NCBI RefSeq assembly: GCF_002082565.1
Contig: NZ_CP020562.1
Span: forward strand, 496,001 to 560,000
Length of the DNA: 64,000 nucleotides
From: Halomonas sp. GT
GTDB lineage: Bacteria > Pseudomonadota > Gammaproteobacteria > Pseudomonadales > Halomonadaceae
Reading direction: 5' to 3'
The position numbers and the translations under genes were made by a program. The notes under the pieces are model-generated. The model was not told where the DNA came from and ran no database searches. It saw only the letters and a list, made by a program, of their open reading frames with translations. Positions within the stretch are counted from its first letter, which is position 1; each line of letters starts with the position of its first letter. Shown here in pieces: positions 23,256-51,779 of this stretch.

Positions 23256-23476
23256 CGCTTTCCTGCAATCGCCATCCAATGCTTCTTTATCGGTTGGTCA
23301 TCTGCAGAAAGGCTATTTTAAACGCAATGCAGGTAGTCTGTGTTGCTAAACAGCAAGCCTTGAAAACACACATGCACCGGCACATGGTCCCGGGTGCCGC
23401 TGGCAGCGTCTGACGATGCCACTGGTCGGATCCATGGGGTGCGTGGAGGCCTAACCCGAGTTTCAGGAGTTTTATC
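23256..23476 (+). promoter_or_regulatory. rpsB 5' leader, probable S2 autoregulatory region
   Basis: Most of the 336-base gap between map and rpsB would be transcribed as a leader of about 220 bases. It contains a stem GGCAC/GTGCC around 23378-23403 and further G+C-rich segments before the ribosome binding site AGGAG at 23466. E. coli rpsB is repressed by free S2 through its leader. That this leader does the same is inference. I see no ORF with a ribosome binding site in it. Confidence 0.4.
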
Positions 23477-50014: not shown

Positions 50015-50143
50015 ATGGCCCACCATGACGACAATTTCAAAGACGAATCAGGTTTACTTTCTATTGTGCTCGGCGTTGTGGTCCTGGTTAGCATGAGCGC
50101 ACTGCCAGCAACGATTGGTTGGATACAAGCATTTGGCGGCTGA
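50015..50143 (+). CDS. 42-residue single-span membrane protein
   Basis: Small ORF from ATG 50015 with an excellent ribosome binding site, AAAAGGAGG, ending 6 bases upstream. The peptide has an acidic head (MAHHDDNFKDESG) and one hydrophobic helix near residues 14-37, ending WIQAFGG, so it should sit in the inner membrane. A longer reading from 49961 has no such site. I do not recognise a family. It follows fre by 66 bases and precedes the aromatic leader region. Confidence 0.65.
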   Translation: MAHHDDNFKDESGLLSIVLGVVVLVSMSALPATIGWIQAFGG

Positions 50144-50241: not shown

Positions 50242-50373
50242 ATGCACACAGCACAACTTACTCACCACGTACAAGCAAGGCCGGTATCGGCGGCTAGTGC
50301 TTGGGCGTGCGTTGCTGCGTTCTTTTATGCTGCCTATTGGTTTAGCCACGGTGTGCCCCTGGCCGACCAGTAG
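50242..50373 (+). CDS. Aromatic leader peptide 1 (attenuator peptide) upstream of DAHP synthase
   Basis: 43-codon ORF with AGGA 7 bases upstream of ATG 50242. Residues 27-34 read Phe-Phe-Tyr-Ala-Ala-Tyr-Trp-Phe, and Trp is also at 21, so seven of 43 residues are aromatic. The cluster (50320-50343) ends 5 bases before the first arm of a chain of alternative hairpins that finishes in a strong terminator at 50417-50459. This is the layout of a transcription attenuator that senses charged tRNA-Phe, tRNA-Tyr and tRNA-Trp, placed upstream of the gene for the first aromatic pathway enzyme. Function is inferred from arrangement. Confidence 0.75.
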   Translation: MHTAQLTHHVQARPVSAASAWACVAAFFYAAYWFSHGVPLADQ

Positions 50374-50459
50374 CGTCGCGTCATCAGGCACACCGACTAG
50401 GTTGCCTGCCGCATGCAAAGAAGCCTCGGTTGGTAACCCAGCCGAGGCTTCTTTTGTTT
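50349..50459 (+). promoter_or_regulatory. Aromatic attenuator: alternative hairpins and terminator
   Basis: Arm 1 CGGTGTGCC (50349-50357) pairs perfectly over 9 bp with arm 2 GGCACACCG (50387-50395). Part of arm 2, ACCGACT (50392-50398), can instead pair over 7 bp (two G-U) with arm 3 GGTTGGT (50428-50434), which would break the terminator. The terminator is a 13-bp stem AAAGAAGCCTCGG/CCGAGGCTTCTTT (50417-50429 with 50442-50454) followed by TTTGTTTT. A ribosome stalled on the aromatic codons would cover arm 1 and favour read-through. Confidence 0.75.
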
Positions 50460-50519
50460 TAACTGTTTATTTAGTTTAACTAGTCAGGTTTCACAGACAT
50501 TTCATCAAGGAGCTGCATC

Positions 50520-50696
50520 ATGATGTACCGCGCAAACTCTCTCGCTAATCTGCTCGCCAATGTTGCCAACTATATCGGTTATGGCTATGGCTGGCGATTT
50601 AGCGACGCGCGGTCGGTGCAAGCTGCCACCTCCGACCGTGCAAGCCAGGGTGGCAAGTTGTTGTTATCACGATGTCACACGCTTCCGGAGAGTTAA
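50520..50696 (+). CDS. Aromatic leader peptide 2, coupled to DAHP synthase
   Basis: 58-codon ORF with AAGGAG 7 bases upstream of ATG 50520 (a tandem ATG ATG). Residues 17-27 read NYIGYGYGWRF, giving three Tyr, one Trp and one Phe in a row of 11. The stop TAA at 50694 is 3 bases before the synthase ATG, and the synthase ribosome binding site GGAGAG lies inside this ORF, so translation is probably coupled. The codons after the cluster form two mutually exclusive hairpins. No protein family is recognised; a regulatory role is inferred. Confidence 0.65.
   Translation: MMYRANSLANLLANVANYIGYGYGWRFSDARSVQAATSDRASQGGKLLLSRCHTLPES
50607..50667 (+). promoter_or_regulatory. Second pair of exclusive hairpins inside leader 2
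   Basis: Hairpin A: GCGCGGTCGG (50607-50616) with CCGACCGTGC (50632-50641), 10 bp including one G-U. Hairpin B: TGCCACCT (50624-50631) with GGGTGGCA (50648-50655), 8 bp including one G-U, followed by AGTTGTTGTTAT. Each uses bases inside the other's loop, so only one can form. CTCCG (50630-50634) can also pair with CGGAG (50686-50690) at the synthase ribosome binding site. A stalled ribosome at the aromatic codons would block hairpin A. Confidence 0.55.
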
Positions 50697-50699
50697 GTT

Positions 50700-51779
50700 A
50701 TGAATGCCCATGTCAGTCCTGCTTGCACAACCTTGTCAAACCTAGCGTCATTAACAAATAGCCCCTCGAACTCATCGCAGCCATTGCCGTTGCCAGCAGA
50801 GCTACGCCGCAGTGTCGCTATCAATAACCAATTGGATGAGCAAATTGCCCGTCAGCGCCAAGCGGTTCAGCGCATCCTCAATGGTCAAGATAACCGCTTA
50901 TTAGTGGTTGTGGGCCCTTGCTCAGTCCACGATCCAAAAGCTGCGTTAGAGTATGCTGATCGTTTGGCTGCGCTAAGCGAAGAAGTTAGCGAGCAACTAT
51001 TACCAGTAATGCGTGTTTACGTAGAAAAGCCGCGTACCACCGTTGGCTGGAAAGGATTGGCATATGACCCTGGGTTAGATGGCCGTGGTGATATGTCAAA
51101 AGGCATCACTCTATCTCGTGAGCTTATGCACGCGGTTGCCTCACGGGGGTTGCCGGTGGCCACAGAGCTTTTACAGCCAATGCTAGCCCCCTACTTAGAT
51201 GATCTGCTGAGCTGGGTTGCCATTGGTGCTCGTACCACTGAGTCGCAGTTACACCGAGAGCTAGCAAGTGATCTTGCGGCAGCAGTGGGGTTTAAAAATG
51301 CGACGAGTGGCGACGTTCAGGTTGCCATTGATGCAATGCAGGCAGCGGCTCATTCCCATCAGCGTTTCGCAATGGATAATGAAGGACGCCCGATCATGCA
51401 GGAAACGGCTGGTAACCCCAATACGCATGTGGTGTTACGAGGCGGTCATGGCGAGCCAAACTACCAGGCGCATCATGTGCGAGCAGCGGTGAATACTTTA
51501 CGAGACGCCGGACAGAACCCTCGCTTAATGGTGGACTGCAGTCACGCCAATGCGCGCAAAGATCACCGACGCCAAAGCGAAGTGATGCTCGACGTGTTGG
51601 CGCAGCGCAAGGCAGGCGATGCAAACCTAGTGGCGCTAATGCTCGAAAGTTACCTGTTCGAAGGTAAGCAAGCGCTGTCGCCTAACGCGATGCGCTACGG
51701 TGTATCGGTGACCGATGCCTGCGTGAGTTGGGAAACCACTGAACGGTTGCTAAAAACCGCTGCTGATCGAATGAGTTAA
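50700..51779 (+). CDS. aroG: 3-deoxy-7-phosphoheptulonate (DAHP) synthase, class I
   Basis: Condenses phosphoenolpyruvate and erythrose 4-phosphate at the entry to the shikimate pathway. The 359 residues have a flexible N-terminal extension of about 35 residues, then the class I core: LLVVVGPCSVHDPKAALEYA (metal Cys), RVYVEKPRTTVGWKGL, ATSGDVQVAIDAM, VLRGGHGEPNY and MVDCSHANARKDH. I cannot tell from motifs which amino acid inhibits it, so the symbol marks the AroF/G/H family. Leader elements upstream suggest control by aromatic amino acid supply. Confidence 0.94.
   Translation: MNAHVSPACTTLSNLASLTNSPSNSSQPLPLPAELRRSVAINNQLDEQIARQRQAVQRILNGQDNRLLVVVGPCSVHDPKAALEYADRLAALSEEVSEQLLPVMRVYVEKPRTTVGWKGLAYDPGLDGRGDMSKGITLSRELMHAVASRGLPVATELLQPMLAPYLDDLLSWVAIGARTTESQLHRELASDLAAAVGFKNATSGDVQVAIDAMQAAAHSHQRFAMDNEGRPIMQETAGNPNTHVVLRGGHGEPNYQAHHVRAAVNTLRDAGQNPRLMVDCSHANARKDHRRQSEVMLDVLAQRKAGDANLVALMLESYLFEGKQALSPNAMRYGVSVTDACVSWETTERLLKTAADRMS

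Follow-up and report, generated by a model that had tools for sequence, protein, structure and literature searches.

A predicted relay attenuator followed by an aromatic leader with a pseudoknot upstream of a DAHP synthase gene in Halomonas sp. GT

The window analyzed here is a stretch of 64,000 nt from Halomonas sp. GT (assembly GCF_002082565.1, contig NZ_CP020562.1, positions 496,001 to 560,000 of the forward strand), in which two leader ORFs with aromatic codons lie in tandem upstream of a gene for DAHP synthase (Table 1). The gene matches NF009395 with 496.3 bits (cut-off, 343) as well as TIGR00034, and the nearest DAHP synthase protein among the named loci compared comes from Vreelandella alkaliphila (96.1% over 359 residues). 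Another DAHP synthase gene lies at 2367865-2368851 on the single contig of the window genome, and no aromatic-dense ORF is listed upstream of this second gene at five loci, one of them from the genome of the window itself. A search of the genome for a further leader of this kind found TATTGGTTTAGC once more and TGGCGATTTAGC three more times, in no case in a leader by sequence context. A promoter was sought directly upstream of ORF1, and no convincing conserved site was found there. Further upstream, positions 50015-50143 of the forward strand encode a predicted membrane peptide of 42 residues (MAHHDDNFKDESGLLSIVLGVVVLVSMSALPATIGWIQAFGG), whose ORF has a strong ribosome site; tblastn finds matches to the peptide at 55 of 141 loci with identities of up to 100%. 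Elsewhere in the window, Rfam identifies a t44 RNA at 23349-23455 on the forward strand (68.3 bits).

Table 1. Features of the two leaders and the DAHP synthase gene, in window coordinates
Feature	Position	Strand	Basis or remarks
ORF1, leader peptide 1 (43 aa)	50242..50373	+	ATG start, AGGA a few bases upstream; stop codon 50371-50373
Segment A (GGTGTGCC)	50350..50357	+	Starts 12 nt past the Trp codon; A:B covariation
Segment B (GGCACACC)	50387..50394	+	Partner of A or of C
Segment C (GGTTGCC)	50400..50406	+	Partner of B or of D
Intrinsic terminator, then T-rich tract	50417..50454	+	Terminator scan; alignment of 65 relatives
Segment D (GGTAACC)	50432..50438	+	Antiterminator partner of C
ORF2, leader peptide 2 (58 aa)	50520..50696	+	AAGGAG at 50508-50513; stop codon 50694-50696, just before the gene ATG
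TGGCGATTTAGC (Trp-Arg-Phe-Ser)	50592..50603	+	Near-invariant at the base level
Pseudoknot S1, 5' strand (GCGGTCGG)	50609..50616	+	S1 98.5% paired; both-side changes at 4 of 8 pairs
Pseudoknot S2, 5' strand (GCCACC)	50625..50630	+	S2 98.9% paired; both-side changes at 3 of 6 pairs
Pseudoknot S1, 3' strand (CCGACCGT; outer pair G-U)	50632..50639	+	Covariation
Pseudoknot S2, 3' strand (GGTGGC)	50649..50654	+	Covariation
CGATGT, conserved word in Halomonadaceae	50670..50675	+	Alignment
DAHP synthase gene (aroF/G/H type)	50700..51779	+	Ribosome site GGAGAG at 50687-50692

The upstream leader had been proposed from the sequence of the window as an aromatic amino acid attenuator, and most of its parts are where the original prediction placed them. 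The 43-codon ORF with its ribosome site and aromatic run does stand ahead of a DAHP synthase gene; its peptide ends in AFFYAAYWFSHGVPLADQ, the aromatic run occupies 50320-50343, and the Trp codon lies at 50338-50340. Of the ORFs of 12 to 90 aa on either strand of the window, ORF1 alone has at least six F, Y, or W within 10 residues, and ten first-order Markov sequences of 64 kb contain on average 0.5 such aromatic-dense ORFs, none of them with a terminator of at least 10 pairs within 160 nt. The predicted 9-bp hairpin was likewise found, as CGGTGTGCC (50349-50357) with GGCACACCG (50387-50395). A 7-bp alternative pairing also exists, but two candidates fit its description, namely segment B (as GGCA[C]ACC) with segment C and segment C with segment D, the latter with one G-U pair. 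The terminator is present with its T-rich tract, but it is longer than the 13 bp first given, the scan returning 17 pairs, 9 of them G-C, followed by TGTTTTAACT; segment D spans the end of its 5' arm, the loop, and the start of its 3' arm. The fold of 50310-50465 has a z score of -6.95, and 0 of 200 shuffles are equally stable.

Conservation of leader 1 was followed in 99 Halomonadaceae loci from 98 genomes (one genome is represented twice) covering 21 of 24 genera, the other three genera having distant copies only, and in a Pseudomonadaceae sample made up of the best-scoring 30 of 58 matching genomes. ORF1 is recognized by pattern at 94 of the 99 Halomonadaceae loci and at all 30 of these best 30 of 58 Pseudomonadaceae loci. 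Four of the five pattern-negative Halomonadaceae loci carry a variant leader (FWYGYFMTGVPAAMS), and the fifth (L097) fits neither ORF1 pattern, yet an ORF with YGWRFSDA is present there. Seven loci were read in other families of the order, where the ORF1 pattern gave only one short chance match; the identity at these loci is 46-48%, so they perhaps represent a different gene copy. An ORF1-type leader does precede DAHP synthase in one more family of the order and in two genomes of a single family outside it. As the original prediction had anticipated for close relatives, the aromatic codons of ORF1 and the stems are kept in Halomonadaceae, the stems with compensatory changes.

The pairings themselves were assessed in 65 of the 77 distinct long-type leaders of Halomonadaceae and in a second set of 30 of the 45 short-type leaders (27 from Pseudomonadaceae and 3 from Halomonadaceae); rows that were divergent or had badly placed ends were omitted by eye, which biases both alignments toward conserved structures. 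In the 65 Halomonadaceae leaders, A:B is 98.5% paired, C:D 92.7%, B:C 94.6%, and the terminator 95.0%, compared with at most 65% for slid controls, and both sides have changed at 3 of 8, 3 of 8, 2 of 8, and 6 of 13 pairs, respectively. The outer pair is broken in 28 of the 65 rows for C:D and in 21 for B:C, and for the set of B:C and the terminator, 17 of 500 shuffles reach the observed count of pairs changed on both sides. The second set is 84.0% paired for A:B, 97.6% for C:D, 90.5% for B:C, and 95.6% for the terminator, with variation that is too small, and the covariation of A:B and C:D in this set is no better than in shuffles, with one slid version scoring higher. The start of segment A is fixed relative to the Trp codon, lying 12 nt past it in 65 of 65 Halomonadaceae leaders and 13 nt past it in 29 of 30 leaders of the second set.

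The picture of a single leader was incomplete, as leader 1 is real but a second ORF with a pseudoknot, placed between the terminator and the gene, had been missed. ORF2 starts Tyr-rich and leads to TGGCGATTTAGC. By pattern it is present at 78 of the 99 Halomonadaceae loci and at 22 of the 30 Pseudomonadaceae loci (best 30 of 58), and at 20 of the 99 loci of Halomonadaceae ORF1 occurs with no ORF2. In one Halomonadaceae genus, ORF1 is much closer to the gene and there is no ORF2, which amounts to a natural deletion of leader 2. There are at least 120 pattern matches in species genomes, and in all 114 with enough downstream DNA, DAHP synthase is the next gene on the same strand, the other 6 of the 120 matches listed lying at the end of a sequence stretch. 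The 80 titles listed comprise Pseudomonas (fluorescens, putida, syringae, protegens, chlororaphis, and others) and Halomonadaceae (Halomonas, Vreelandella, Billgrantia, Chromohalobacter, and others), together with one Pantoea and one Paucimonas entry. An Rfam search of ORF2 at E values of up to 10 gave nothing notable, and no intrinsic terminator was found for leader 2.

Downstream of TGGCGATTTAGC, within ORF2, constraint falls on the bases, and an H-type pseudoknot is 98.7% paired over 76 distinct Halomonadaceae sequences, with both partners changed at 7 of 14 pairs. The alignment comprises 77 of the 78 ORF2 loci (one duplicate was dropped), which were selected with a protein pattern constraining part of the first S1 strand. 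Cells changed on both sides number 37, compared with 9.7 in shuffles, and 0 of 500 shuffles reach 37. A structure-free covariation scan of Halomonadaceae gave the outer pair of S1 as its strongest signal and no clear covariation partner for TGGCGATTTAGC or CGATGT; in Pseudomonas, the pseudoknot did not emerge from the same kind of scan, 71 of 72 sequences carry a mismatch in S1, and there is zero covariation. Of the 22 Pseudomonadaceae loci (from the best 30 of 58) in which the ORF2 word occurs exactly, 21 lack the pseudoknot. A covariance model matched 12 of 293 genomes of the order (8 from Halomonadaceae and 4 from one genus of the second family) and 2 of 369 genomes of the class, both Halomonadaceae, with a single copy in each. 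Six loci of that one second-family genus have the pseudoknot form, and the other Pseudomonadaceae loci keep ORF2 without it; its occurrence in a single genus there may reflect gain, loss, or exchange.

The evidence for both leaders is computational throughout, and comparison among relatives establishes the ORFs, their codons, the pairings, the reading frame, and the positions. The reading of the locus that we prefer, with a probability of roughly 0.7, is that a relay attenuator (leader 1) and a second aromatic checkpoint (leader 2) jointly govern the DAHP synthase gene. The sensing of tRNA, the direction of switching, and the whole of the action of leader 2 are parts of this reading that we infer from the conserved features.

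Under the preferred reading, leader 2 would be transcribed only after read-through at leader 1, and a ribosome stalled on the Tyr, Trp, or Phe codons of ORF2 would halt just ahead of the pseudoknot. Leader 2 would then act past the terminator, most likely by setting ribosome access to the gene start. In Halomonadaceae-type loci, the median distance from the ORF2 stop to the gene start is 6 nt; in Pseudomonas, it is 50.5 nt. In Pseudomonas, folds of this gap, computed with no shuffle control, begin 0-2 nt past the ORF2 stop in 66 of 66 loci (mean, -19.7 kcal/mol) and 0-8 nt past it in 21 of 21 loci of the other group (mean, -20.5 kcal/mol). In the twelve gap folds that were inspected, the hairpin ends near the ribosome site, and the alignment fold is weak. 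The Pseudomonadaceae loci L116 to L145 have a hairpin of variable sequence between the ORF2 stop and the ribosome site of the gene. The gap hairpin and the stop-to-start spacing point to translational gating or coupling, which is our best guess for leader 2, held at somewhat below even odds.

Two other mechanisms were tried and set aside. Masking of the gene ribosome site by CACCTCC in the pseudoknot was evaluated at 144 of 198 loci, those that fit the pseudoknot pattern and have an assigned start, where the first loop is fixed at 8 by the pattern and the second, free to range from 8 to 14, is 10 in 144 of 144. Mean pairing is 0.18 in the 78 Halomonadaceae-type loci, 26 of which exceed 0.3, and 0.005 in the 66 Pseudomonas loci, none of which does, and masking was rejected as a general mechanism. 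A frameshift from ORF2 into the gene is likewise rejected, as the TGG-to-ATG distance modulo 3 is 0, 1, or 2 in 37, 21, and 40 loci, respectively (98 of the 120 loci listed, those with a start assigned).

It is also conceivable that leader 2 controls Rho, in that a stalled ribosome would block access, whereas an emptied ORF2 would expose a C-rich stretch, and transcription would end before the gene. Control of Rho access by a stalled ribosome has a precedent in tnaC. The ORF2 tail in Pseudomonas is indeed rich in C relative to G, with a median C/G of 1.89 in the pseudoknot-type loci (n=66; 95th percentile of the control, 1.86) and 2.16 in other Pseudomonas-family loci (n=21; 95th percentile of the control, 1.84), but the Halomonadaceae-type loci, including the family of the window, have a median of only 1.19 (n=78; 95th percentile of the control, 1.92), and we consider Rho control unlikely.

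For leader 1, the analysis does not support switching as originally drawn, in which formation of the 2:3 pairing would disrupt the terminator. A:B and C:D have no bases in common and hence are not mutually exclusive, so that B:C is required, and A:B is the pairing predicted to favor read-through. On the evidence of the alignments, the conserved B:C pairing joins A:B and C:D into a five-segment relay. Leader 1 would accordingly be a ribosome-read transcription attenuator of relay design: a ribosome stalled on the aromatic codons would halt just before segment A, allowing A:B to pair, which would leave C free for C:D and break the terminator, giving read-through, while a ribosome at the stop codon would cover A or the gap between A and B, so that B:C and then the terminator would form.

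Folding of nascent prefixes, in which the leader 1 folds are equilibrium folds of truncated RNA, is consistent with this scheme. With the ribosome edge at Trp+12, B:C has a probability of 0.09 in Halomonadaceae and 0.15 in the second set, and A:B forms; with the ribosome at the stop codon, B:C rises to 0.95 and 0.93. The shift toward B:C between stall and stop exceeds 0.3 in 63 of 65 and 29 of 30 loci, and no locus shifts the opposite way. Edges from Trp+6 to Trp+12 favor A:B, Trp+15 is mixed, and Trp+18 favors B:C; for a ribosome at the last Phe (edge Trp+15), B:C exceeds 0.5 in 41 of 65 loci, and with the edge at stop+15, B:C is retained in only 10 of the 30 leaders of the second set. Pairing of D in the antiterminator, folded for the 106 of 124 leaders with a located terminator, averages 0.65 with a stalled ribosome versus 0.43 at the stop; the difference exceeds 0.2 in 43 of the 106 loci, is reversed in 1, and is small in the remainder. 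In the window itself, the corresponding values are 0.77 and 0.69, and because this final difference is small, the switch there must be kinetic, depending on the order of folding. Ribosome-free RNA favors A:B over B:C in the family means (0.78 versus 0.27; 0.56 versus 0.50 in the second set), but the window, unlike the family mean, favors B:C (0.71 over 0.32), and read-through of untranslated RNA is therefore a family trend rather than a prediction for the window genome. The model implies that stalls at the Tyr codons and at Trp should favor read-through, and that the last Phe is ambiguous; because the prediction for a stall there is mixed, the sensing of Phe would rest on the upstream Phe codons.

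A plain three-part attenuator, in which a stalled ribosome masks region 1, 2:3 pairs, and the terminator is broken, would account for the ORF, its codons, the first hairpin, and the terminator, all of which are present, and a ribosome halted at the last Phe (edge Trp+15 to +18) would cover A as this scheme supposes. However, a ribosome that stalls at Trp or before it does not extend to A, which stays free with edges at Trp+6 to Trp+12, and the outcome at the last Phe is mixed; moreover, a masked A would promote B:C and leave the terminator intact, and A:B and C:D share no bases. The plain scheme is thus improbable for leader 1. In the trp scheme, the first hairpin works in the direction opposite to that of A:B here, where A:B favors read-through. 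The relay design, if it operates as proposed, would allow stalls at several upstream codons, and for more than one amino acid, to give the same output.

A separate question is whether ORF2 matters as a reading frame at all. Aromatic codons make up 30.3% of those before TGGCGATTTAGC in frame versus 3.0 and 9.9% in the other frames (180 distinct sequences), and the distance between TGG and the conserved word that follows is divisible by three in 84 of 85 and 77 of 77 loci having that word. Because of this in-frame enrichment and the three-base steps in spacing, the ORF2 frame is under selection. The invariance of TGGCGATTTAGC at the base level (third codon positions are near-invariant too, although the species-genome loci were chosen by this word) and the compact geometry of the pseudoknot would also suit an element that is chiefly a riboswitch or a protein-binding pseudoknot with an incidental reading frame, but the enrichment in frame 0 only and the three-base steps show that translation matters, and Pseudomonadaceae keep TGGCGATTTAGC without the pseudoknot, which together make such an element quite improbable. 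If leader 2 is instead read by ribosomes, as in the preferred reading, ORF2 and its pseudoknot might represent a new class of ribosome-gated RNA switch, in which a starved ribosome halts at the pseudoknot edge and the charging of aromatic tRNAs is tied to translation of the shikimate entry gene once the relay has licensed it, a double lock that would be common to Halomonadaceae and Pseudomonas. This proposal is tentative, and we would expect it to fail more readily than to hold.

The leader 1 region also has a bearing on the Rfam family P15 (RF00627). At E values of up to 10, Rfam returned weak matches only for the leader, the best being a full-length match to P15 (E, 0.00034; 29.6 bits) that does not reach the gathering cut-off of 70. 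All 5 Pseudomonas loci tested have P15 above cut-off, some 90-115 nt before the ORF2 pattern, and of seven other matches, five lie upstream of DAHP synthase and two do not, so that 10 of the 12 P15 matches checked outside the window genome are upstream of this gene; the two exceptions are weak (29.8 and 28.4 bits). P15 is most likely the terminated leader of the DAHP synthase gene. Rfam lists P15 as a Pseudomonas sRNA and the window matches it over its full length, but the window falls below the cut-off and 10 of 12 matches sit upstream of DAHP synthase, and we consider it very improbable that the RNA acts mainly in trans. A role in trans in addition to that of a cis leader may exist. On the basis of synteny, a 2008 paper (PMC2527527) suspected that P15 may be a riboswitch. 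P15 occupies the same place ahead of the same gene as leader 1, and at 29.6 versus 70 bits the window is no formal member of the family. If our reading is correct, it provides a function for a family listed as a small RNA, as well as an explanation for the control of shikimate-pathway flux in Pseudomonas and relatives of Halomonas.

Ribosome-read attenuators control the trp, phe, his, and leu operons. Leader 1 shares with them a leader ORF rich in codons for the product, alternative pairings, and an intrinsic terminator ahead of a biosynthetic gene, and in Halomonadaceae its conserved, mutually exclusive pairings end in a terminator or an antiterminator. It differs from them in preceding the gene for pathway entry, in having codons for three amino acids, in having a second leader downstream, and in its extra relay pairing, with the stalled ribosome predicted to leave the first segment free. 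A review-level account of such attenuators is given in PMC1262725. In the portions consulted of the literature searched, which left subscription papers mostly outside and included PMC2965389, PMC8297930, PMC4263517, PMC2375449, PMC11124144, and PMC7822408, we found no account of this leader, nor a description of the pseudoknot leader or of its combination with a relay attenuator.

Several described systems nevertheless resemble parts of the locus. According to the available text of PMC2659441, an attenuator has been predicted for aroF in Shewanella, and there is an older proposal for E. coli aroF-tyrA; tyrosyl-tRNA-sensing attenuation has thus been suggested for a DAHP synthase gene, while that text describes no aroF leader peptide, relay, or second leader. 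The mgtCBR leader RNA of Salmonella (PMC3641672) likewise contains tandem leader ORFs that respond to different signals, ATP and proline, and one of the two senses a charged tRNA; both leaders here instead have aromatic codons, and no intrinsic terminator was found for leader 2. The LEU element ahead of leuA in Actinobacteria (PMC1262725) combines a leader peptide that has codons for the product with a conserved pseudoknot near the start of the gene, and its codon run pairs with the ribosome site of the gene. In Halomonadaceae only, ORF2 similarly has a pseudoknot beside its leader peptide, and no complementarity between the ORF2 codon run and the ribosome site of the gene was noticed by eye. 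Set against these systems, the locus holds an attenuator of a known kind at an unusual gene, with a relay that alters its predicted logic, followed by a pseudoknot-bearing aromatic leader.
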